IMG/VR virus record: IMGVR_UViG_3300028430_000414
Span: 1 to 32,529 of that record
Origin: a virus
DNA length: 32,529 nucleotides
Strand: one strand, 5' to 3'
Position numbers and translations under genes: made by a program. The notes beneath the pieces are model-generated. The model was not told the origin of the DNA, made no database searches, and saw only the letters and a list, made by a program, of their open reading frames with translations. Below are positions 3,658 to 31,404 of the stretch, piece by piece. Positions within the stretch are counted from its first letter, which is position 1; each line of letters starts with the position of its first letter.

Positions 3658-6135
3658 TTATATGTATCGGTAAGAATACCCGCCGTCAGCGAAACCGATC
3701 AATTTGACCTCATGAGTATTATTGATCGTGAATCCGGTCGGTGTGTCAATCTCAATTTCATTTGTGCCAGGAAAAACGGCTATGACTTCCGCCTCTGGAC
3801 TATAATCAGTATAGTCAAAATTGTTCAAACGCACGACCGCGCCGACGCGAAACTTCGGAAAATCCGCAGCTGCAACCTCAAACCTGATTTGCGACGTCGC
3901 GAATAGCACCGGAACATTCGGCGAAAAGAACGCGTGCTGCGCTTTTAAGCTGGCGTTCGTGTTCGGATTCGTGTCCGTAGGATACAACGGAACGTCCACA
4001 ATCCAATCCTCGGACGGCGCCACCGACAACGGCGGGTCGATGAGCATTGAATCAGGGAATGTTCCCAGCGCCACGATTTCAGACTCCTCAACGAATGACC
4101 AATCTGGAGAGTGAACAATGATCGGAAATCCGACGTAGTCTTCCCACTTTTTTACTTCGTTTTGAAATGATTTTGTTCCCCATGATTTCTTCAGTCGCAA
4201 GCGGTCCACGCCAGAGTCAGCGTCAATTTTTGAGCTTGGAGAAATCACTCCGTAGCGGTCATTGAATTCAAAAGCAGTATTCAATAAATCGAAAGACGTT
4301 TCTCCGGTCTTGTTGTCGATTGTTTTATTGATGACTTCCATGTACTTCTTGATGCCTTGGCGGTTTCCTGTGGACGCGTCAGTCAGTTTCAAAGAAGCGT
4401 AGTCAACAAGCACAATGTCGCTGATTTCAATGGGATATCCAATTCCGTAAATGAGCTTCACGCCTTGAATGAACTCCGCGCCGAATCTATATCTGGCAAG
4501 CAATCGCTCACTCGATAAGTTTGACAGAAGCGTTGCCGCCAGGTCGGTTCTCATCCCGCGCGAAGCGATGGACATTTTCTTGTCACCAGTTGGAATTCGC
4601 AGCTGTGATTCTTCGCTCACGAAACTTCTCACGCGTCGATATTTATCTTCGAGATATTCGTGGTCGTATTTAAACTCGATTTTGTTGAAGAAATTAGAAA
4701 CAATGGAGCGTCGAACTTTTAAGTCCTTCGCGTTTTGCACATTGCTGACGTCGAGTGTTTGAATAAAGTTTGAAGCAATCGGCCCAATGGTGTATGTCGC
4801 CGAAGTTCGACCTGATCTCGGAACGCTGAAAACCGCCATCGGCAAAAACAATTCTCGCTCAATAAAGTCTTTTGTCACCTCGATATTGAACTCTGTGAAA
4901 TCGAAAGTGAATGTCGACAGGAAAGTATCACGGATGAATTCATGTCTTGCGACGTCGACTTCAGCCGGAGTCATTTTCAATCCGATTCCGAGCGAGTCAT
5001 ATTTTGAGCGAAACGAAATCAATGCCTGTGAATTGAACTCATCGACAAGCTGCGCGCCGTCCACGATCACGAATGATCCGTCATTGGTTTTATCGACCTC
5101 CACAATTTGGCGCATTGTGAATACGTTTTCTGGAAAAATTGCGGACGCACTTGTTATCCAATCACCAGGAGTGATGCCATATTCTTCAATGACGTCGATG
5201 CCTTCGAAGAAAATTGCGTTCTGTTGAGGCTGCCCGACTCCGATATTGTTGAAGTATGTGGCCGGAACCGCATTGACAAAATAGTCATTCCATCCCGACA
5301 GCATTAGTTTTAACGCCAGGTCGATTCCGTTGCCTTGAAGTCTAACGCCTTTAGAAACCTCGGCTTGATCGTCGTGTGAGTCCGCGACAGTGTTTAAATA
5401 CGCGCGCGTGACGTTTTGCAGGTCGTTGCCGCTAACAGTTTCGTACTTGAAAATTTCGTCATCAATTTGCGCCAGGAATTCAATCGCTGGGTCGGGTTGT
5501 CCGTCTGGACCGTTCACTACTTGCGGAAACGTGCTGGCATCTAGCAACGAGAGTGAAGTCAATGGCCCGTTCGTGATCGCGCCGTTCAGGTCCGTCGTGT
5601 CGTTGTCAAACAATGGCCGTCTTCGCTTTTCGTCCGCGCTCGACAGCAATAGATTGACGTATCCCGCGCCCGCATCGACGTCGGAAATAATGCCACGAAA
5701 AATGACGTCATAGTCTTCTGGATATGATGTTTCAAGAAACCCCACGGACACAACGCAATCGCGTCCGATGATTTCCTCAAGCTCAAATCCAGGGCTGATG
5801 AGACGAGAAATTTCTTCGTTCTTATCTATCAGACTGATAGTCATGTTTGAAATCGACGTTCCTTGCGCGCGATCTGGCTGGAGTTTTTGGCTGATTCTCG
5901 TTGTCGACCCACCGCCAGAACCGAAGCTCATGTATGTGGATTGATTCTTGATGAGGCGAACGCCGCCAATCACCCAGTCGTCGCCGATTTCTAGGCCCTC
6001 ATCCCCAATTCGAATGTATTCATTTATCCCGGCAGAAGTAAAAATCTTATCGTAGCCGTTGATTTTGAAAACAATGGTGGGAGTCGTTGAGATTTTCTGA
6101 GCTGCCGCGCGCGCGTTGGGTGTTAGATCAATCAT
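3658..6135 (-). CDS. Large tail protein, probable tail hub / tip
   Basis: This 825-residue protein has features of siphovirus tail-tip hub proteins. The N-terminal domain starts IDLTPNARAAAQ and has beta-rich segments such as FRGIISDVDAGAGYVNLLL. A module around residues 215-260 has DDEIFKYETVSGNDLQ followed by VTRAYLNT, a pattern common in phage tail hub proteins. The C-terminal third contains beta-barrel-like segments (FRVGAVVRLNNFDY and EIEIDTPTGF). It begins eight bases inside the end of the lipoprotein gene. Role: it would close the tail tube at the distal end and carry receptor-binding parts. The family assignment is inferred from pattern and position, not from a search. Confidence 0.65.
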   Translation of the reverse strand: MIDLTPNARAAAQKISTTPTIVFKINGYDKIFTSAGINEYIRIGDEGLEIGDDWVIGGVRLIKNQSTYMSFGSGGGSTTRISQKLQPDRAQGTSISNMTISLIDKNEEISRLISPGFELEEIIGRDCVVSVGFLETSYPEDYDVIFRGIISDVDAGAGYVNLLLSSADEKRRRPLFDNDTTDLNGAITNGPLTSLSLLDASTFPQVVNGPDGQPDPAIEFLAQIDDEIFKYETVSGNDLQNVTRAYLNTVADSHDDQAEVSKGVRLQGNGIDLALKLMLSGWNDYFVNAVPATYFNNIGVGQPQQNAIFFEGIDVIEEYGITPGDWITSASAIFPENVFTMRQIVEVDKTNDGSFVIVDGAQLVDEFNSQALISFRSKYDSLGIGLKMTPAEVDVARHEFIRDTFLSTFTFDFTEFNIEVTKDFIERELFLPMAVFSVPRSGRTSATYTIGPIASNFIQTLDVSNVQNAKDLKVRRSIVSNFFNKIEFKYDHEYLEDKYRRVRSFVSEESQLRIPTGDKKMSIASRGMRTDLAATLLSNLSSERLLARYRFGAEFIQGVKLIYGIGYPIEISDIVLVDYASLKLTDASTGNRQGIKKYMEVINKTIDNKTGETSFDLLNTAFEFNDRYGVISPSSKIDADSGVDRLRLKKSWGTKSFQNEVKKWEDYVGFPIIVHSPDWSFVEESEIVALGTFPDSMLIDPPLSVAPSEDWIVDVPLYPTDTNPNTNASLKAQHAFFSPNVPVLFATSQIRFEVAAADFPKFRVGAVVRLNNFDYTDYSPEAEVIAVFPGTNEIEIDTPTGFTINNTHEVKLIGFADGGYSYRYI

Positions 6136-7302: not shown

Positions 7303-9329
7303 TAGTAAATTCTCCATCCAAAATTATTGTAGCTTGCAGAGTTGAACAAACCTAATCCAGCACCAGTGTCTTGAAAAGTTCTAACTCTTATTGTGTCTCC
7401 AGCGTTCACAGGAAATCCAACAACTCTTGATTGCATCCCCGTTCTTCCAATCGAACTTCCGTAGTTTGTACTGATAGAAATGAAAGTTGTGTTGTTGTGG
7501 AAAAAATGCATTGTTCTTGATCCAGTCGCGTTTGGTCCGCCGTATGTTAAAAGAGCTTGTAAATCAATGAACCCAGCTCTGGGGATAGTTAAAATTCCTG
7601 TCGTTGCATCAAAAGCGTTGTGTGTATCGGAAACCTTTGTCCATCCAGTTACAGTTTGATCTGTAGAATTTGGGATTACTTGTCCACTTGCGTTTGTAGC
7701 AAATCCAGAAATTACTTCACTGGCTGCAATTTGAGATGGACCTGAAGTTCTGGTAATGAATGCATTGTTTAATTGAAATGTTCTAGTATTACCTGCATTT
7801 TGAAACGCTCTTAACGTTACAACTTGCCCAGCTCTTAAAAATGGCTCATAAGAACCTGCAACATAAGTCGCTGACCCTTGTACTTGCGTACTAATAGCGT
7901 CAGTGACCGCCAGAGCATCACTAAAAACTCCATCTATATACAACCTAAGTTGATGAGACGCTGTAGAACCTCCCGCGAGTGTTCCGAAAAAACCACGAAC
8001 AGAAATTCTATAAAATCCAGTGACAGGTACACGATATTCATTTCCTACCCAAGCTCCGTGAGTATCTGAGCCTATGTTTAGTCCAGTCAGCGCGACATCG
8101 GTGTTATTTGCAATATTTTGTCCTGCTGTTTGAAAAGCGACTGAAGAAACTATTCTCGTGTCAGTATCCGACGAAAGCTGAACGTTTGAAGAAAAACCTA
8201 CAACCGGAACTTTTGCGTTTATTGAAACAGTATCGCCAGACGCAAGCGCAACTGGAGCCGTCTGATTCATTGCAGTCAATTGACCAGTTGCTGATGCTTG
8301 AACTGTACACAATAACTGAGTTGAATTGTTGTATTTAGCGCTTCCTTGATAGTAAGCACTCGCACTTGAATCGAATAAAGTGACATCACCAAAAACAACG
8401 TCAACAAAAGCAGCTGTCGGAAGTTTCGTTGTGTCGATTGCCATTCCACTCGGAAGATTCAACAAAATATTTGATGCGTTTGGTGCGCCAGTAAAAGACA
8501 ACTTATATTGAAGTTCCACAGAATCGCCGACTCGTCTGAAGCGTCCTGTATAAGTTGTATTTACTGTGAATCCGCCAGTAGGTGTGAACGATTGCCAGTC
8601 AGTAATGACAGCGCCGTTGCTCACAACTTGAGGACCAACTCGAACGTCGTCAAACCCTAAAACATATGCCGCAGCTGATGTCGTGGCGACGTGAAAAATA
8701 AGTCTATAGCTTGTTGAGTTTGGACTTGATTGAAACGTCGAGCGATACCTATAGAATTGACCAATCAGCGCTGGCTCAAGAAGTCTTCCGGCTGGCTCGA
8801 TCAGTCGGTTATTTGTAACGTCGAGAATATAAACTATGATGTCAGAATCAATTGCCGGAGCCGTGCTGCCAACAAAAGTTCCAGAAATTAATTTCCAATC
8901 AAATTGAATTTGCAACGGCTTTGCTTGGTCCGCGCGGTCAATTGTGAAGTCATAGCTCACGCCTTGGCCTTGGCGGTTGACTGCGTCTTTTGTAAAGTTA
9001 AATTCACCAGCGCCACGCAGAGGAGTTGTCGTCGAGCGCGTCCATGTAACGTTTGGCGTGCCGCCAGTTCCATCAACCGGACGAGATTGAGCTGCGTCGG
9101 CATAGGTCGCCCACCCGTTCGTGTTCGCTTGAGCAGAACCATTCAGAATATAATTTATTCCACCAGCTCCGCCACCGATGTCACCGTCAATGATTGCTTG
9201 TCGGAGTGTTTTATTGATTGAGTTTGCAGCGACATAGACTTGATCATCCCCAGGCAACGATGAAGCTGGCGCGCCCGCGCCCGCGAGGTCTGCTTCTGTT
9301 TTGATGTCTTGTCTTTGAATCTTGCTCAT
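7302..9329 (-). CDS. Tail fibre / receptor-binding protein with two C-terminal C1q-like modules
   Basis: The 675-residue protein has an N-terminal anchor with a Gly-rich hinge (about residues 45-57, GDIGGGAGG). Next comes a region resembling a carbohydrate-binding beta sandwich (residues 58-235, with NYILNGSAQ and FDDVRVGP), then a middle beta domain. Two related C-terminal domains of about 130-150 residues follow. Each begins with a VxxFxT/SGFAT-like strand and contains SDTHxA and a GFxxISV/GFIDLQA strand, like the C1q/TNF jelly-roll heads used by phages to bind cell surfaces. It is coupled to its neighbours by TAATG junctions at both ends. Receptor binding is inferred. Confidence 0.75.
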   Translation of the reverse strand: MSKIQRQDIKTEADLAGAGAPASSLPGDDQVYVAANSINKTLRQAIIDGDIGGGAGGINYILNGSAQANTNGWATYADAAQSRPVDGTGGTPNVTWTRSTTTPLRGAGEFNFTKDAVNRQGQGVSYDFTIDRADQAKPLQIQFDWKLISGTFVGSTAPAIDSDIIVYILDVTNNRLIEPAGRLLEPALIGQFYRYRSTFQSSPNSTSYRLIFHVATTSAAAYVLGFDDVRVGPQVVSNGAVITDWQSFTPTGGFTVNTTYTGRFRRVGDSVELQYKLSFTGAPNASNILLNLPSGMAIDTTKLPTAAFVDVVFGDVTLFDSSASAYYQGSAKYNNSTQLLCTVQASATGQLTAMNQTAPVALASGDTVSINAKVPVVGFSSNVQLSSDTDTRIVSSVAFQTAGQNIANNTDVALTGLNIGSDTHGAWVGNEYRVPVTGFYRISVRGFFGTLAGGSTASHQLRLYIDGVFSDALAVTDAISTQVQGSATYVAGSYEPFLRAGQVVTLRAFQNAGNTRTFQLNNAFITRTSGPSQIAASEVISGFATNASGQVIPNSTDQTVTGWTKVSDTHNAFDATTGILTIPRAGFIDLQALLTYGGPNATGSRTMHFFHNNTTFISISTNYGSSIGRTGMQSRVVGFPVNAGDTIRVRTFQDTGAGLGLFNSASYNNFGWRIY

Positions 9330-9589
9330 TATTCGCCTCTCAATCTAATGTAGTTCACTCTCACAGTCTGCCCCAGCACGGGGGCAGTTGTGAAGGTGAT
9401 ATTTAAACCTGAAATAGTGTAGTCAACACCAGGAATTTTCTTAAGTCCGTCGAGAAACACGTCCACGGCGTCGTTTTCCAATGGCGTTTGTGAAACCACG
9501 TACAAAGTATTCGTTCCGTTCACAAGACCTGCCGGAGTTTCATCAACCCAGAATCGTCTCAACCAAGCCGCATTTAAACGAGCAGACAT
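9329..9589 (-). CDS. Single-module small tail protein, 86 aa
   Basis: This 86-residue protein consists mainly of one beta-sandwich module: VDETPAGLVNGTN, then VDVFLDGLKKIPGVDY, then TTAPVLGQTVRVNYI. The same module appears inside the 555-residue protein at 10410-12077 with the matching steps YETPAGVINGSN, VFVDGVALKP and TTAPVLGQFLNVFY. This points to a shared, duplicated building block of the fibre assembly. The ATG at 9589 has AGGGG upstream, and its stop overlaps the next fibre start (TAATG). A role as a small connector or cap in the fibre is inferred. Confidence 0.7.
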   Translation of the reverse strand: MSARLNAAWLRRFWVDETPAGLVNGTNTLYVVSQTPLENDAVDVFLDGLKKIPGVDYTISGLNITFTTAPVLGQTVRVNYIRLRGE

Positions 9590-24744: not shown

Positions 24745-26940
24745 TTACCTCGAAGCCGTGAATGCGAGCGTGCATCGACAGTTGATCACTTGCTCCGCTC
24801 CACCAGCTGGGTCGCCTGGGCCGTCCATATCCGCGTCCGGTGGAACTGTGAACTTCTGATCGAGGTCGACTTGTACGCCGTTCATATCCAAATGATTTGC
24901 GTCGTTTCCGGTTTTTCCGCCGTCGCGCGTGCGATCATCTTGAACGGAAACCCACTCCTTCTTCAAGCCTGGGATTTCAAGAGCCTTGGCAGCCTCGACC
25001 GTGGCGTTGTTTGATGCCATTGATACTTCCGTGCGCGCAATCATCATGGCGCGAGACTTCGACAATGAGTCAAAAGCGTCACGCAATTCGCCCGCAAAAT
25101 CGACCGGTTCTTCCGTTCCATCGGCGCGTTCGTCGCGGATTGCCTCCGCCGTGAGTCTTTGAACTACTTTTCGAACTTGTTTTCTGGTGGTGCCTTCAAT
25201 GTCTGTGATGGCGTTTCCGGTTCTTGTCTTAATGTAGCGGTCTGCCCATTGTTCCCAAGTACGCTCGCTAGCTTTAGTTTCAATTCTAAGTCCGAGAGAT
25301 TTAGCTTCCTGAAATACTCGCCGACCGAAATCCTCAACTGAGAACTTGATGTAGCGTTGGATTGTTTTTGATATATCGACCATGCCCGCGTCGATGGCTT
25401 TTTGTAGGGCATATTCGGCTGTTCTGGGTTCTTTATCTTTGAGGGCTTTTTCAAGAGCGCGCCCCAGTTCTTCGAAATCTTGCTCTAGTGAGCGTTGAAA
25501 GGGTCTTTCGAGTCGTTTGCGTTGGGCGTTCATTCGACGCCATGATTGACGCTTTTCGCGTTGATTGAGGAGGTTGAAGTTTTTCCACTCCTTTACCTCC
25601 TCATCGTCCCCGATTACTTCTTCTTCGGAGTCTTCTTCGTTGTCTTCTTGGCTGGTTTCTTCATCTTGGTCTCCTTCCTCCGAATCGCTGTTTGTCTGAT
25701 CCGTTTCCAAATCAGACGAACTTTCTTCAGGAGTGTCAAGCAATTGATTTCCGATCATGAAAACGTCCCACCCCTCAACTGGTTCATATCCAGCGAGTTC
25801 ACGCTTTTCGTTTTGCGTGATGAAGTTGAGAGCGTTGATCGTGACGTACTTGGCTTGGCGCTTGTCCGTGAGTGCCTCGATGTCGTCGCGGTCGTATTTT
25901 ACTTCGATAGTATCACCGAACCACTGACGCAAATAGCGCGTGAGCTCGAACTCAAACATGTCCATCATCGGCATGATCGTGTCCACGTACATAGCGTCTT
26001 TGGCCTCTTTGTAGTTTTGATAAGTAGATTGACCGAATCCCAACAACTGAGACGGAACTCCGAACGCGTTGCAAATATCGGTCGACGTAACCTTTTTGCC
26101 TTCAAGCCATTCCATTTCTTTCGGGTTCAAGGCGATTTGTTCCCAGCTCATGCCACCTTCGAGCAGCATTGGGCGCGCGACGTTTTTCGGTCCGGCGTAT
26201 CGTTCTTCAAGTTGACGCTGTAAAAACGTGCGCTGTTCTGACGTCAGCATTCCGCCAGGATTTGAGTCACTCGATGCGACCTTGAGAACTCCAGAAGGTT
26301 GAGCCATGTTCTGAAGCAAGGACAAATTCCATCTGTTTGAGCTGTTGAGCTGGTCTACGTTTAAAATAATGGCCTCAATCGGGCTCATGCCGTACCAGAT
26401 ACTCAACGGGTGAAATGTTTTAATGTGTTTGATTCGGCTTTTGCCTGTGATCGGGTCTGCCGCCCAAAAGCGTTCGTTCTGTCCGTCTTTGAACATGTAC
26501 TGAGAGACTGTGCCCACCGCGTTCGGAACCACGCGCATGAGGTCGGGGCGCACAGACCACAACTCTGAGGGAGGAGCGTTTGGAGTTGGGCCCGCGCCTT
26601 CGATGTATGTATTTCCTGCAATTAAATAGTACGCGACGACGCTTTCAAAATACGCCGACCAGCCTTGAAGCGGATTCGGTGATTGTAACAGATTCCAAAC
26701 CGGACCGTTCGTCACTTCTTGCCCGCGTTGATAAACTTCCCAACGAATACCCGCCGCCGCCGTGGATAACAATTTCACGCATCGATAAACGACCACGTTC
26801 TTTTGATAGCCTTCTTTTGAAAACCCTGCGTAGTTGGCTTCGGTTGTAACAGGCTGCCCGAGCTTTTGAACTGACATCGCCATGCGGGCTTGGCTCGCTT
26901 TGGAGCCGAACAGAAACCTCATTCGATCAAAGAACGTCAT
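24745..26940 (-). CDS. Portal protein fused to a MuF-like head protein domain
   Basis: This 731-residue protein starts with an HK97-type portal (residues 1 to about 405). Its markers include VVVYRCVKLLSTAAAG, WNLLQSPNP, YYLIAGNTYIEG, MSPIEAIILNVDQ and TSTDICNAFGVPSQLLG. The clip region is followed by a strongly acidic linker (about residues 405-450, mainly Glu, Asp and Ser). A MuF-like C-terminal domain (about 570-731) then has ARTEVSMASN, DDRTRDGGKTG, HLDMNG and VINCRCTLAF. Portal and MuF are usually separate neighbouring genes. The portal forms the DNA channel and the MuF domain is thought to be a minor head protein. The gene overlaps the terminase stop by ATGA. Confidence 0.9.
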   Translation of the reverse strand: MTFFDRMRFLFGSKASQARMAMSVQKLGQPVTTEANYAGFSKEGYQKNVVVYRCVKLLSTAAAGIRWEVYQRGQEVTNGPVWNLLQSPNPLQGWSAYFESVVAYYLIAGNTYIEGAGPTPNAPPSELWSVRPDLMRVVPNAVGTVSQYMFKDGQNERFWAADPITGKSRIKHIKTFHPLSIWYGMSPIEAIILNVDQLNSSNRWNLSLLQNMAQPSGVLKVASSDSNPGGMLTSEQRTFLQRQLEERYAGPKNVARPMLLEGGMSWEQIALNPKEMEWLEGKKVTSTDICNAFGVPSQLLGFGQSTYQNYKEAKDAMYVDTIMPMMDMFEFELTRYLRQWFGDTIEVKYDRDDIEALTDKRQAKYVTINALNFITQNEKRELAGYEPVEGWDVFMIGNQLLDTPEESSSDLETDQTNSDSEEGDQDEETSQEDNEEDSEEEVIGDDEEVKEWKNFNLLNQREKRQSWRRMNAQRKRLERPFQRSLEQDFEELGRALEKALKDKEPRTAEYALQKAIDAGMVDISKTIQRYIKFSVEDFGRRVFQEAKSLGLRIETKASERTWEQWADRYIKTRTGNAITDIEGTTRKQVRKVVQRLTAEAIRDERADGTEEPVDFAGELRDAFDSLSKSRAMMIARTEVSMASNNATVEAAKALEIPGLKKEWVSVQDDRTRDGGKTGNDANHLDMNGVQVDLDQKFTVPPDADMDGPGDPAGGAEQVINCRCTLAFTASR

Positions 26941-28295
26941 AGAATTGTGATCCTTGGTTGGTATTGATTGAAGTTATTGAAATAGTCTGCCATCTGGGAA
27001 GTCGTGTCAACTTGGTCGTCGTGCGCGGTCGCTGGGAATTGCTCATGCTCTCGGATGAAATCAGATAACCACGACGCTTGTCGAGGCAAAAAGCATTTTC
27101 CAGACCGCACAAACGGAGTTGCCTCAATGGCGCGCAATGTTTTGTCCTTGGCGCGCGGGTCGTAGGCCTTAATGGGAATTGTCGTTTTCCGGCGTGCGTA
27201 CTGAATCATTGATGAGCCTGAAGACTTATCCTCGATTTGAACCTCGTTCGGTCTCCACTTGTTGTATTGCTGTTGAATGGCGTTTTCTAGGTCTGGTGCT
27301 TCCATCTTGGCGCGGAACAAGTCGAGTAAGTAAAACCCGTCGGCGGCCTTGCCCCAAGTCGCGCACACAGAATAGTCATTCGTGAGTCCTGGCTTTTGCG
27401 CCGTGTCCCAGAACTGCACCTTCCACTGAATCCAAGATGGAGCCTGATCGTAGTAATTCCACCACTCGCGCTTGAAAATTTCTCCGCCGTCCTTTGTTGG
27501 TTTTTGTTGATAAAGCGCCTGCCAATACTGGTCTGGTAATCCGTTTCTGATGTTTATCAAAGAATCTAGAGAATAGCGTTCTGGACATAGGGCCTCATTT
27601 TCCAATCGCCCCAGGAGATCATTCTCCTCTGAAATAGCTGGCAGTGAAATCATAGTCCAGTCATCGCCGTGATCATTCATTAGGTACCCGGCTAAATCAT
27701 CGTGATGCCACCGGGTCATGATCACTATGATAGTCGCTCCAGGCTCCTGTCGTGTATAAAATGTTGAGTTAAACCAATCCTTTACTTTTTCTCTGTATGT
27801 TTCAGAGCTGGCCTCTTCCCAGTTTTTAATTGGGTCGTCGCAGATAAGCAAGTGACCGCCCTTTCCAGTGATGGACCCTCCAATACCTGCAGTGGCCATA
27901 GATGAGCCATTTGAAAGCATGAACCTATTGGCAGCCTTATTGTCTGATGTGAGCTTCCTGCCAGCAAATTCATTTGCATCAAAATGGTTTCGAACCCATC
28001 GACCAAATCCAGTCGCGAGCTCGGCTCCATACGATGTCAGAATGACATTCTTTTCGCCAAAATTATCCAAGTACCAGGCCGGGAGCCATTTCGAAAATGT
28101 TTCTGTTTTGCCGTGCCTTGGTGGCATCGAAAGAATAAACCGCCCACCACCAGTCACTATTTTTGACGTTATCATTTTCAATGGAACCATCAAATGCCTG
28201 TATGGTTTCCACTTTTTTCCGCTGCATTTTTGCGCGTAAGTATCAGGAAACGCGCGCCAAAGATCGGCTAATCCATCAAAATCATTCGGCTTCAT
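26937..28295 (-). CDS. Terminase large subunit
   Basis: The 452-residue protein has an N-terminal ATPase with Walker A at about residues 56-64 (SMPPRHGKT) and Walker B at 149-154 (LLICDD). A coupling motif is near MTRWHHDDL. The C-terminal nuclease has acidic residues in QFWDTAQ (Asp297), EDKSSG and HDDQVD (425-430). It packages DNA through the portal and cuts the concatemer. It overlaps the small terminase gene by 14 bases and the portal by four. The length is typical. Confidence 0.95.
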   Translation of the reverse strand: MKPNDFDGLADLWRAFPDTYAQKCSGKKWKPYRHLMVPLKMITSKIVTGGGRFILSMPPRHGKTETFSKWLPAWYLDNFGEKNVILTSYGAELATGFGRWVRNHFDANEFAGRKLTSDNKAANRFMLSNGSSMATAGIGGSITGKGGHLLICDDPIKNWEEASSETYREKVKDWFNSTFYTRQEPGATIIVIMTRWHHDDLAGYLMNDHGDDWTMISLPAISEENDLLGRLENEALCPERYSLDSLINIRNGLPDQYWQALYQQKPTKDGGEIFKREWWNYYDQAPSWIQWKVQFWDTAQKPGLTNDYSVCATWGKAADGFYLLDLFRAKMEAPDLENAIQQQYNKWRPNEVQIEDKSSGSSMIQYARRKTTIPIKAYDPRAKDKTLRAIEATPFVRSGKCFLPRQASWLSDFIREHEQFPATAHDDQVDTTSQMADYFNNFNQYQPRITIL

Positions 28296-28704
28296 CGTCC
28301 ACCATCTTTTGGGCGATGGTTCGCGCTGCCTCTAAAAGAGATTCGTCGTTGATAATTTCCGCCAACGGATTTTTATTTGAAACCTTCGCCTTGATGTCTG
28401 AAACGTGTTCGAACTTATCAGCCCAACCGCACATATTTTTCAGGCAGAAAATCAACATGGTGTTATCTTCTTTTTCAATTGCTTTCCTAAGGGCCGTTCT
28501 GATGAGCGCGTGCCGAGTGTGAACCATGTTTTGTGCCCTAAACTCGACAAACGTGAGATCAAAATTGTCTCGAATAAACCTCTCAATCGTCCGCGGCGCG
28601 ACTTGAAACCAAGCAGCCGTATCTTCAAGCGTAGGCTTCATCCGCATGAATGCCTTGAGTTTTTCGATTTCTATTTTGTCTGTTTTTGTGGCAAAAGCTG
28701 GCAT
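28282..28704 (-). CDS. Terminase small subunit
   Basis: The 140-residue protein has an N-terminal helix-turn-helix (PTLEDTAAWFQVAPRTIER, about residues 28-46). A central helical region (ALIRTALRKAIEKEDN, MLIFCLKNMCGWADKFE) follows, which is the pattern in small terminase subunits of this type. An acidic C-terminus may contact the large subunit. It binds packaging sites on DNA and stimulates the large subunit. The gene directly follows the Mom-like gene (TAAAATG). It precedes TerL with a 14-base overlap. Confidence 0.85.
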   Translation of the reverse strand: MPAFATKTDKIEIEKLKAFMRMKPTLEDTAAWFQVAPRTIERFIRDNFDLTFVEFRAQNMVHTRHALIRTALRKAIEKEDNTMLIFCLKNMCGWADKFEHVSDIKAKVSNKNPLAEIINDESLLEAARTIAQKMVDDEAE

Positions 28705-28705
28705 T

Positions 28706-29461
28706 TTAACCCTGCCCTAATTGGAGCGCATCGGTCGGACTTTCACCGCCCCCTACCTCTTGGAAAGAGGTCGTGCCAGATTCAACACTAGATGCGCGTA
28801 TTTTTTGGCCTTTATACATCCTCACTTCATCTGGAATTTTGTCAATGAATTTGAATCTTGCCTCCAGAGATTTGTCGAAGAAGTAAATATACTTCATCTG
28901 AAACCCTTCAATTGGCTTCAATTTCAGGACTGTCGATAAGTTTTGTCCATTTGGGGTCAGTTTGTGATCTAGGGATTTTTTAGCCACCACTTTTCGTTTT
29001 TTTGTCCCGTGATTGAATGCCACTTCACCGTTTCCAGCATCAAGAAGCGAGTTATTTTTCTTGAATGAGTGCAGTTTAAAACCACTTGCGCGGTAAATAG
29101 TTCCATCACCGCACTGGCAGGCGTCCGCAAATGAAATAATACATCTTAAATGTGGATATGTTTTCTTCAATATTCTTAAACAAACAGAAATTGCGCGACT
29201 CTCGGAGTTTTTTGGAAGCACATCAGAAAACGCCATTCGATTCAACTCAAGAAAATGATTCATGTCTATCCCAAGATTTTCACCCATCCGCCGTTTGTCT
29301 ATCGACGGTCCGAACTGCAAGACGCCCTGTAAAGTTCCTTCCCAGAAAACTCCAAAATGAATTTGTGAGTTTTGAGTCGACTTTCCAGAATAATGGAATC
29401 TTTCGACAATTTTTCTGGCCGATGCACCATCGATTGATTTGATAAGAATGTTTTTAACCAT
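28706..29461 (-). CDS. Mom-like DNA modification protein
   Basis: The 251-residue protein fits the Mom family, GNAT-fold proteins that modify adenine (in phage Mu they add a methylcarbamoyl group) and protect phage DNA from host restriction. Key segments are ARKIVERFHYSGKS (residues 15-28) and LELNRMAFSDVLPKNSESRA (71-90). The strand CIISFADA (107-114) follows, then GTIYRASGF (120-128). The last 35 residues (after DEVRMYKGQKI) are Ser, Gly and Glu-rich and possibly disordered. It overlaps the ParB-like gene by eight bases and precedes the terminases. The chemistry in this phage is inferred from family, not shown. Confidence 0.75.
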   Translation of the reverse strand: MVKNILIKSIDGASARKIVERFHYSGKSTQNSQIHFGVFWEGTLQGVLQFGPSIDKRRMGENLGIDMNHFLELNRMAFSDVLPKNSESRAISVCLRILKKTYPHLRCIISFADACQCGDGTIYRASGFKLHSFKKNNSLLDAGNGEVAFNHGTKKRKVVAKKSLDHKLTPNGQNLSTVLKLKPIEGFQMKYIYFFDKSLEARFKFIDKIPDEVRMYKGQKIRASSVESGTTSFQEVGGGESPTDALQLGQG

Positions 29462-30080
29462 ATAGATACCGTTTCAGAATTGCTGCGAGCGCATTTCCGT
29501 TGGAATTTTTGTTCAATTCGTCTTCGCAGTGCTCGTTTTTCTTTGATTTTGCTATTGCCTCGTCGAGTATGTCCTTTTGCTCATTGGATAAGACGAAAGT
29601 GACTGTCTGAATTCCAGGGTCTGAAGTTGCTAGCGAAGGCATTTCGACTTCAAGCGGCTCGACTTTGAAATCTGGAATACCTAATACGTCAAAATCAATG
29701 ATTTCGTCCTTAAATTCGAAGGCAATTTCATTGATCTTGTTGTCATCCATTTCTGCAAGCTCTGCAATTTTATTGTCAGCAATCACGTCAGCAAATTCTT
29801 GAGCCTCGGATTCGTAGTCCTGAAAATCGACAGCCGCATGGGTCCATTTCAGCTTCTGGAGGGCCATCAATCGACCATGACCCTTAGTGATGAAGCCTGA
29901 TCTATTTGAGACGACGATGGGTGAACGCTGTCCCTGGTAGGCGATCACCTTGGCCAGAAAATCGATTTGAACTTCAGGATGATCATTCGGATTTCGTGGA
30001 TTTGGCACCAGTTCAAAAATTGGGACTATTTTTTTGTACGCACATTTGAATTTTGTCAGATCAATTTGATTTTCAAGCAT
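29454..30080 (-). CDS. ParB/Srx-domain protein
   Basis: From the ATG at 30080 (GAGGT ribosome site) the product has 208 residues. The N-terminal ParB/sulfiredoxin-like domain has LVPNPRNPNDHPE, then QGQRSPIVVSN and the nucleotide-binding loop ITKGHGRLMALQKL (residues 64-77). The next helical part (EFADVIADNKIAELAEMD) is common in phage ParB-like proteins. These proteins bind or hydrolyse nucleotides and often accompany DNA modification genes. The C-terminus is a separate helical region (LSNEQKDILDEAIAKSKKNE). It overlaps the Mom-like gene. A start at 30125 is open but less likely. Confidence 0.78.
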   Translation of the reverse strand: MLENQIDLTKFKCAYKKIVPIFELVPNPRNPNDHPEVQIDFLAKVIAYQGQRSPIVVSNRSGFITKGHGRLMALQKLKWTHAAVDFQDYESEAQEFADVIADNKIAELAEMDDNKINEIAFEFKDEIIDFDVLGIPDFKVEPLEVEMPSLATSDPGIQTVTFVLSNEQKDILDEAIAKSKKNEHCEDELNKNSNGNALAAILKRYLYG

Positions 30081-30166: not shown

Positions 30167-30204
30167 AAAAAACCCCGCGCCGAGAGTAACGTCGAAACGC
30201 GGGG
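30167..30204 (-). terminator. Intrinsic terminator after the recT-like gene
   Basis: A 7-bp perfect G+C stem, ccccgcg at 30173-30179 and cgcgggg at 30198-30204, encloses an 18-base loop. On the minus-strand transcript it is followed by six U residues (30172-30167) and further U-rich sequence. It lies about 40 bases after the recT stop and separates the early genes from the ParB/Mom/terminase operon. A promoter for that operon should lie between it and 30080, but no convincing -35/-10 pair is evident by eye. Confidence 0.8.
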
Positions 30205-30244
30205 TCTGCCTTCAGTTGGAACCACGATGCTAGGGAAAGTGACT

Positions 30245-31060
30245 TTAGGCGTTCCCTTTATCGGCGGGTGAATCCAAAAGTTGATTCAATTTATCCGCTC
30301 CGGACGTAATCTCGACCCCTTGACGGGTGACGTCCCGTGGTTCATCTGACGTTGGTATATAATTGAAATCGTATTCAGCTATCGGCGCTCCGCCAATTGC
30401 GTCTGGGAATGCGGTTTTTAGCGCTTGGCTTCGCGCCCTACGCATGAGCATGATTTTAGGATAGGTATTCCAAGGCCCGCGCTTATCGAGCAATCCAGCC
30501 CGTTCTGCTTCGTCCATGGTAAAAGTTGCCTCAACCTTTGGAAGTTCGTTTCTTTGTAAAACACAAACTCCAGCCCACGGTTTAGCGCTAAGATTTTTAT
30601 TCGCTAAACATATTTTGTTATACTCCGCGTCGATAACGTATTCGTCGATGAATTTTATTTCACGGGTTTGATACGCCAGCTTCAATGGAAGCTCGCCAAA
30701 TATTGAAGGAACTCCGTTGATAACTGCGATATTTCTCAATCCACTTACAGCCTCTAATCCAAGTTCTTTGGCGAATTGCATACCGACTACGATTTTTGCA
30801 GCACTATCATATCCTTTTGGCGCAAATCCTGCTTTTAAAATAGCCTCGGCGAACGCGAACATTTGCATTGAATTTTCAGGTTTTAATTTTCCTGATTCGT
30901 CAACTTTTGTGTATTCTTTGGTTTGTATTGATGAAGGTTTGGATTTTTTAGTCTCCTCTTTTCCGCTCTCTGCTGATTGACGCAAATCCGACAATATTTC
31001 TTGGTTCCCGATGGTCTCGCTTTGTAATTTTGTATCGATAACTGATGGCCCTTCTTGCAT
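30245..31060 (-). CDS. RecT-like single-strand annealing protein
   Basis: The 271-residue protein has the RecT/Bet-like pattern: FAEAILKAGFAPKGYDS, KIVVGMQFAKELGLEAVSG, then INGVPSIFGELPLKLAYQ. The terminal box FTMDEAERAGLLDKRGPW, YPKIMLMRRARSQALKTAFPD follows. It anneals complementary single strands in phage recombination. The ATG at 31060 has a strong GAGGTG site seven bases upstream. The first 60 residues are Lys/Glu/Ser-rich, not conserved in appearance, and are read in another frame by the C-terminus of the HNH gene. An in-frame ATG at residue 64 or 66 (SMQMFAFAEA) could be an older or alternative start. Confidence 0.8.
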   Translation of the reverse strand: MQEGPSVIDTKLQSETIGNQEILSDLRQSAESGKEETKKSKPSSIQTKEYTKVDESGKLKPENSMQMFAFAEAILKAGFAPKGYDSAAKIVVGMQFAKELGLEAVSGLRNIAVINGVPSIFGELPLKLAYQTREIKFIDEYVIDAEYNKICLANKNLSAKPWAGVCVLQRNELPKVEATFTMDEAERAGLLDKRGPWNTYPKIMLMRRARSQALKTAFPDAIGGAPIAEYDFNYIPTSDEPRDVTRQGVEITSGADKLNQLLDSPADKGNA

Positions 31061-31404
31061 AAATTCACCTCTTTTTTATAGTTTCTGTTTTTTGAAATCA
31101 TATCTCTGACGTTTTCCAGCTGAGTCCCGACTTTCAAATGATCTGGATTCACACACTTTGGATTGTCGCATGTGTGCATAACTACTTTATTTTTCACGCT
31201 GATTTTATTGAAATGCTCGCAAATTAAACGATGCACATAAGCTCTTTTTCTCAAACACTGAACTTTTCTATATCCAGACCCGTTGTGCCATCCACTAGCT
31301 TCCAAACACCCTGATTTTGTTTTTTGTGCGTTTTTATAAATCAGTAATGCTTTGCTAAGTAATTTTTTATCTAATTCGTTGATTGTGTTCATTTTTTCGA
31401 TCAT
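30883..31404 (-). CDS. HNH homing-type endonuclease
   Basis: The 173-residue protein has the HNH_3 architecture: YVHRLICEHFNK, then VVMHTCDNPKCVNPDHLKVG and TQLENVRDMISKNR. A C-terminal Zn finger (CKKGH near residue 116, CRIC about 25 residues later) and a basic tail follow. Free-standing phage nucleases of this type are mobile and spread into related genomes. The last 178 bases overlap the start of the recT-like gene in another frame, including the whole Zn finger. It starts at 31404 without a strong ribosome site, just after the micro-ORF. Confidence 0.82.
   Translation of the reverse strand: MIEKMNTINELDKKLLSKALLIYKNAQKTKSGCLEASGWHNGSGYRKVQCLRKRAYVHRLICEHFNKISVKNKVVMHTCDNPKCVNPDHLKVGTQLENVRDMISKNRNYKKEVNLCKKGHQLSIQNYKARPSGTKKYCRICVNQQRAEKRRLKNPNLHQYKPKNTQKLTNQEN

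Follow-up and report, generated by a model that had tools for sequence, protein, structure and literature searches.

A tRNA-Gly-like element in the 3′ end of a phage mom gene and its possible role as glycine donor for DNA modification

Glycyl-tRNA is an activated form of glycine found in every cell, and GNAT folds are contained in FemX as well as in TacT. Mom of phage Mu modifies DNA to α-N-(purin-6-yl)glycinamide (Swinton et al. 1983, as cited in PMC3874153 and PMC4461284), and the mass added by this modification equals one glycyl residue (57.02146, computed). The donor of the modification is not settled in the open-access literature; an acyl-CoA such as glycyl-CoA was proposed earlier (PMC7824862). 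In Staphylococcus aureus, the changes in the tRNA-Gly serving FemX are read as an escape from EF-Tu (PMC4052509).

Here we describe a mom locus in a stretch of viral DNA of 32,529 nucleotides, which is called the window. The encoded Mom has enzyme family and fold (PF25680, 8bv8) in common with the com-mom system of Mu. While in Mu the small gene that overlaps mom upstream is com, it is parB in the window; unlike the window, Mu carries neither a ParB gene nor a tRNA-Gly-like element near mom. The main partner of mom, passed over in the first-pass annotation as a Ser/Gly tail, is a tRNA-Gly-like gene (Table 1).

Table 1 Features of the mom locus in the window
Feature	Position	Strand	Evidence
mom (Mom/GNAT DNA modification enzyme)	28706-29461	-	PF25680 3.3e-46; 8bv8 phmmer 8e-21; Foldseek 1.5e-15
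tRNA-Gly-like element, 76 nt, in 3′ end of mom ORF	28722-28797	-	covariation, independent covariance model, relatives
Element parts: 7-bp acceptor, D-arm, anticodon arm (UCC), T-arm with bulged A63, U73, encoded CCA	28722-28797	-	
Acceptor 5′ strand GCGCATC, positions 1-7 (G1, C2, G3 = glycine identity)	28791-28797	-	pairs with 28726-28732
Anticodon UCC, positions 34-36 (C35, C36 = glycine identity)	28762-28764	-	
T-arm GGCGG-TGAAAGT-CCG(A)CC, bulged A at 28735; standard 5-bp register unpaired	28733-28750	-	
Acceptor 3′ strand GATGCGC, discriminator U73 and CCA	28722-28732	-	
parB (ParB/Srx fold, Mom-clade-specific C-terminal domain, residues ~150-208)	29454-30080	-	profile, Foldseek, relatives
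terS, small terminase, downstream	28282-28704	-	weak HTH profile match, relatives
terL, large terminase, downstream	26937-28295	-	profile matches
Intrinsic terminator between recT-like gene and parB	~30167-30207	-	stem-loop and T-run, z -3.9

The mom locus and the cloverleaf in its 3′ end

That the product of mom is a Mom protein is beyond doubt. The PF25680 profile matches residues 5-205, i.e. the whole domain, with 157.9 bits at a cut-off of 27.1, and the AF2 model has the GNAT-like fold of Mu Mom, which is also its top PDB match. The gene layout of the first-pass annotation was borne out: a Mom-like gene overlaps by 8 nt a ParB/Srx gene with the nucleotide loop KGHGRL, supported by profile and fold matches; the two terminase genes lie downstream of mom; and the proposed terminator, a stem-loop with a T-run, is well suited to end the transcript of the recT-like gene upstream. 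Upstream of the module, the genes of a RecT-like annealing protein (30245-31060) and of an HNH endonuclease (30883-31404) overlap.

The C-terminal tail of Mom, ~30 residues long, is disordered in the model with pLDDT <50 from residue 220, and residues ~220-251 are encoded by the same DNA as the RNA gene. The long Ser/Gly tail did not hold up as a protein feature, since relatives conserve this DNA in each of the three frames, as expected of DNA encoding a tRNA-Gly-like RNA. A conserved peptide motif EGGAxPTxALH at the Mom C-terminus was likewise discarded, as conservation of the underlying DNA holds in every frame and also beyond the ORF: relatives carry this DNA in the second or third frame, where it reads RRCDTDPxAP or AEHHRPARS, or past the mom stop codon. 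Counted by position, the element lies inside mom in 85 cases, across the stop codon in 23 and downstream in 24, and all reading frames occur.

In the DNA alignment of relatives, a 7-bp stem closes a unit of 67-76 nt that ends in TCCA. Imposing the tRNA cloverleaf on a first set of 31 elements, each 76 nt long, gave pairing in 94.8% of the cells and two-sided changes in 16 of the 21 pairs; the covariation score was 0.624, compared with 0.166 ± 0.015 after shuffling and ≤0.12 when the structure was slid. The regular T-stem register 49-53/61-65 was discarded with only 22.6% of cells pairing, and a T-arm with one bulged base, which is nearly always A, gives 100%. A second set was selected only by a DNA motif of the T-arm and 3′ end and not by pairing in the acceptor, D or anticodon arms. 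With 59 distinct sequences among the matches listed, this set showed the same covariation, its score being 0.631 versus 0.146; the alignment had been adjusted to the first model, a procedure that is somewhat in favour of the structure. The covariance model built from this second set with the window excluded recovers exactly the window element with an E-value of 9.8e-17 and without mispairs.

ARAGORN and Rfam found no tRNA in the window, where the gathering threshold of RF00005 was not reached. The elements of four relatives (L120, L158, L171 and L138) exceed the Rfam tRNA threshold. Single-sequence folding of the window element gives no cloverleaf; its structure rests on covariation and on the model matches.

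tRNA genes are common integration sites, and temperate phages carry tRNA fragments. As many relatives are prophage-like, one could see in the element the remnant of an attachment site left by integration into a tRNA gene. We regard this as extremely improbable, because the cloverleaf is full-length with compensatory changes in all arms, its fixed place is at mom and not at an integrase, and the acceptor stem differs between relatives.

Linkage of the element to Mom and the place of ParB/Srx

With the first covariance model, a match was obtained in 93 of 94 viral ParB-Mom loci (L043, whose DNA ends at mom, was left out) and in 51 of 61 bacterial Mom loci; the model gave no match in the viral locus L025 nor in the other 10 bacterial loci, about a sixth. 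The linkage was also approached from the RNA side by scanning IMG/VR with the DNA motif GGCGGTGCAANTCCGACC-N5-GCTCCA, which uses no protein information and samples one sequence variant. Among the matches listed, 115 loci had at least 400 nt upstream, and in 105 of these an ORF recognised by the Mom HMM overlaps or adjoins the element. In the remaining 10 loci, the ORFs of L251 and L341 match PF25680 and that of L350 resembles the one of L251, giving an element beside Mom in 108 of 115 loci (94%) among the matches listed; as the loci counted for linkage are all homologous, they do not represent independent events. A few elements have no recognised Mom nearby. In two loci (L298:792-860 and L343:500-568) the element stands beside genes of a C5-cytosine DNA methylase and a large terminase, and Mom was not recognised there.

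Divergent Mom clades carry the element as well, namely Arthrobacter phage StevieBAY (L184, E 1e-11) and L234 (E 3e-8). The model search detected no such RNA in sixteen other distant Mom loci including Mu, and the element was likewise not found at two bacterial Moms near that of Mu. By sequence comparison, the tRNA-Gly-like element appears linked to the Mom family in hundreds of viruses.

The arrangement varies in some relatives. Two tandem elements follow one mom in L110:4653-4793, L141:4801-4973 and L168:1499-1642, and in L254 the order is mom, a glycosyltransferase-like ORF and then the element (9259-9333). A possible degenerate tRNA-like 3′ half (GCAGTTCGATTCTGC...CACCA), unmatched by the model, follows mom in L131 at ~4680-4800.

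The ParB/Srx gene lies directly upstream of mom in each of the 107 viral loci that leave room there and in 60 of 63 bacterial loci, all of these being the nearest relatives of this Mom; the two genes mostly overlap by 14, 8 or 4 nt. In Foldseek, the N-domain matches Noc/ParB CTPase structures, several of them with CTP-derived ligands, and its nucleotide loop (G-x-x-R) reads GHGR, with G67 invariant in 71 relatives. While the N-domain is divergent among relatives, the C-terminal domain is well conserved, and in 398 genomes of one phylum it was found only at a mom locus, apart from one degraded copy. Pfam gave no convincing match for this domain; from its strand-helix-helix pattern we can only guess at a ribbon-helix-helix-like fold.

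The strong pairing upholds one part of the first-pass reading of a two-gene Mom-ParB system; the other part does not stand, as ParB is not obligatory in the wider system. Among the matches listed, the motif-selected loci with room comprise 66 with Mom, RNA and ParB and 31 of 97 with Mom and RNA and no ParB nearby, so that ParB is dispensable in other clades and a strict triad of Mom, ParB and RNA is ruled out. In 27 of these 31 ParB-less loci, among the matches listed, the element is found at the 5′ and not at the 3′ end of mom. An essential ParB that supplies or controls the modification, with the RNA as an accessory, would agree with the constant pairing and gene overlap in the nearest relatives and with a C-terminal domain nearly exclusive to Mom loci; the 31 ParB-less loci with Mom and element speak against it, and we consider this reading improbable.

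Several loci depart from the common ParB-Mom arrangement. L235 and L236 have the ParB-Mom pair, the element was not found there, and a conserved hairpin-rich stretch (AGGGTATCCCCCGGC...) without an Rfam match follows the pair at ~2100-2400. In L176:2620-2937 and L177:3562-4044, the ParB C-terminal domain precedes mom alone, without an in-frame N-domain, which could reflect a partner consisting of this domain only or a frameshift. StevieBAY encodes a ParB without the C-terminal domain (L184:693-1456) and a separate protein of 77 amino acids between ParB and Mom. ParB is followed by two tandem Mom-family genes in L130, L143 and L150-L152, in L014, and in L127, L138 and L170; in the last three, the added gene represents a divergent paralogue with a THAGGCKNDCGIVYQ motif.

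Glycine identity and glycyl-tRNA as the proposed donor

The bacterial glycine identity set consists of U73, G1-C72, C2-G71, G3-C70, C35 and C36 (PMC9976931, Table 1). Among 134 distinct elements, G1-C72 and C2-G71 are present in all, G3-C70 in 123, and U73 and the CC of the anticodon loop in 133 each, where some uniformity of the identity bases is expected because the elements were found by homology. The acceptor pairs next to the identity pairs vary freely. The element of the window carries the full set, and CCA is encoded in 105 of the 134 elements. When whole genomes were scanned with the element model, the remaining good matches were mostly host tRNA-Gly genes. We regard it as well established from these comparisons that the predicted RNA is a conserved cloverleaf with glycine identity and a specific link to mom.

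The elements depart from translating tRNAs in features that EF-Tu and the ribosome recognise. The T-stem is bulged in 124 of the 134 elements, and a canonical TTCRA T-loop is found in 29; the T-loop of the window element is TGAAAGT instead of TTC. The D-loop GG (G18-G19) is absent in the window (TGAATCTG) and present in 9 of 31 relatives. U33 occurs in 36 of 88 seven-base anticodon loops of relatives and is present in the window. The altered T-stem, T-loop and D-loop would shield the phage RNA from translation.

One may ask whether the element is an ordinary tRNA for translation, or a decoy or replacement against tRNA-cleaving host defences, whose position beside mom is fortuitous or due to a common cargo cassette. 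tRNAs are common in phages, and the elements of L158 and L171 are nearly canonical. This explanation is nevertheless rather unlikely in our view: about 94% of the motif-selected elements among the matches listed adjoin Mom, nearly all anticodon loops read NCC (Gly), and the elements mostly have a bulged T-stem and lack the D-loop GG and the TTC loop.

Another explanation, unlikely as well though slightly less so, sees in the element a tRNA-like signal for regulation or processing of the mom transcript that keeps Mom synthesis low, either through cutting by tRNA-processing enzymes or through Mom binding. The element and mom overlap at the 3′ or at the 5′ end of the gene, and processing would therefore cut the message; overexpression of Mu Mom is toxic (PMC4461284). 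However, U73, C35, C36, G1-C72 and C2-G71 are unneeded for processing and yet near-invariant, and the switch between 3′ and 5′ positions fits a linked gene better than a cis-acting signal.

We therefore return to glycyl-tRNA as the donor of Mom, a proposal made because glycyl-tRNA is ubiquitous activated glycine and because enzymes with a GNAT fold act on Gly-tRNA. Our model of the whole module, which we hold to be probable, is that the element is a dedicated glycine donor for Mom that is charged by the host GlyRS. With slightly more reserve, we also think it likely that this amounts to aminoacyl-tRNA-dependent DNA modification, in which a translation-shielded, host-charged phage tRNA-Gly is Mom's donor for the glycine on adenine and the two genes have merged.

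We infer the following course for the processing and charging of the RNA, its donation of glycine to Mom, the protection of the DNA and the part played by ParB. The core module would be Mom and its dedicated tRNA-Gly-like RNA, produced from one stretch of DNA. The RNA would be co-transcribed with mom and then trimmed as a tRNA; since element and gene overlap, each transcript may give either an intact mom message or the RNA, one of the two. Host glycyl-tRNA synthetase would charge the RNA with glycine, as the identity nucleotides are kept, and the charged RNA would avoid translation because of its altered features. Mom, with its GNAT fold, would transfer the glycyl group from the RNA to N6 of adenine. 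Direct transfer yields N6-glycyl-adenine, an isomer of the known product adenine glycinamide, and a subsequent rearrangement must therefore be assumed. The modified phage DNA would be resistant to restriction. In this clade, ParB/Srx, whose translation would be coupled to that of mom, probably places Mom on DNA or guides it there by means of the nucleotide switch and the clade-specific C-terminal domain of ParB/Srx.

The RNA is not needed by every Mom, because Mu Mom is active and yet no element was found at the Mu-type Moms searched; without an element of their own, these would need host Gly-tRNA or another donor. The 10 bacterial Mom loci and L025 without a match, and the few elements beside a cytosine methylase or with no recognised Mom nearby, also speak against the model.

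In the open-access literature we found no report linking Mom with tRNA or glycyl-tRNA, and earlier reports may have been missed. A dedicated glycine tRNA fused to a mom gene points to glycyl-tRNA as the donor. If this is true, DNA would join cell walls, lipids and tagged proteins among the targets modified from aminoacyl-tRNAs, and phages could make their DNA restriction-resistant at the expense of the host's translation supply. The elements also define an RNA family that standard tRNA finders (ARAGORN, Rfam) miss in the window.

Comparison with known systems

A similar use of a tRNA is that by FemXAB of S. aureus, for which PMC4052509 describes glycine taken from specialised, non-proteinogenic tRNA-Gly isoacceptors with T-stem changes and loss of G18-G19, as in the window. 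A bulged-A T-stem like that of the phage element is not described for the S. aureus tRNA-Gly in the available text of that paper. The acceptor of FemXAB is a cell-wall precursor, whereas that of Mom would be DNA. A precedent for enzymes acting on Gly-tRNA is given by TacT-type toxins, which read U73 and G71 of charged tRNA-Gly (PMC9976931); TacT acetylates the charged glycine, whereas Mom would take the glycine itself.

For the ParB domain of the window, the closest profile is that of phage ParB-DNA methyltransferase fusions (PHROG 498), and the protein is 48-57% identical to phage ParB-MTase and ParB-like proteins, e.g. of Roseburia phage Shimadzu. In contrast to the methylase fusions of PHROG 498, ParB of the window is free-standing, carries a C-terminal domain of its own and is paired with Mom. 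Psychrobacter phage vB_PmaS_Y8A (OQ059336) has a second, distant mom at which the model did not find the element. Its other mom lies in the order ParB-Mom-terS-terL as in the window and has two tandem elements, while the phage record labels this Mom 'hypothetical protein' and annotates no RNA at that place.
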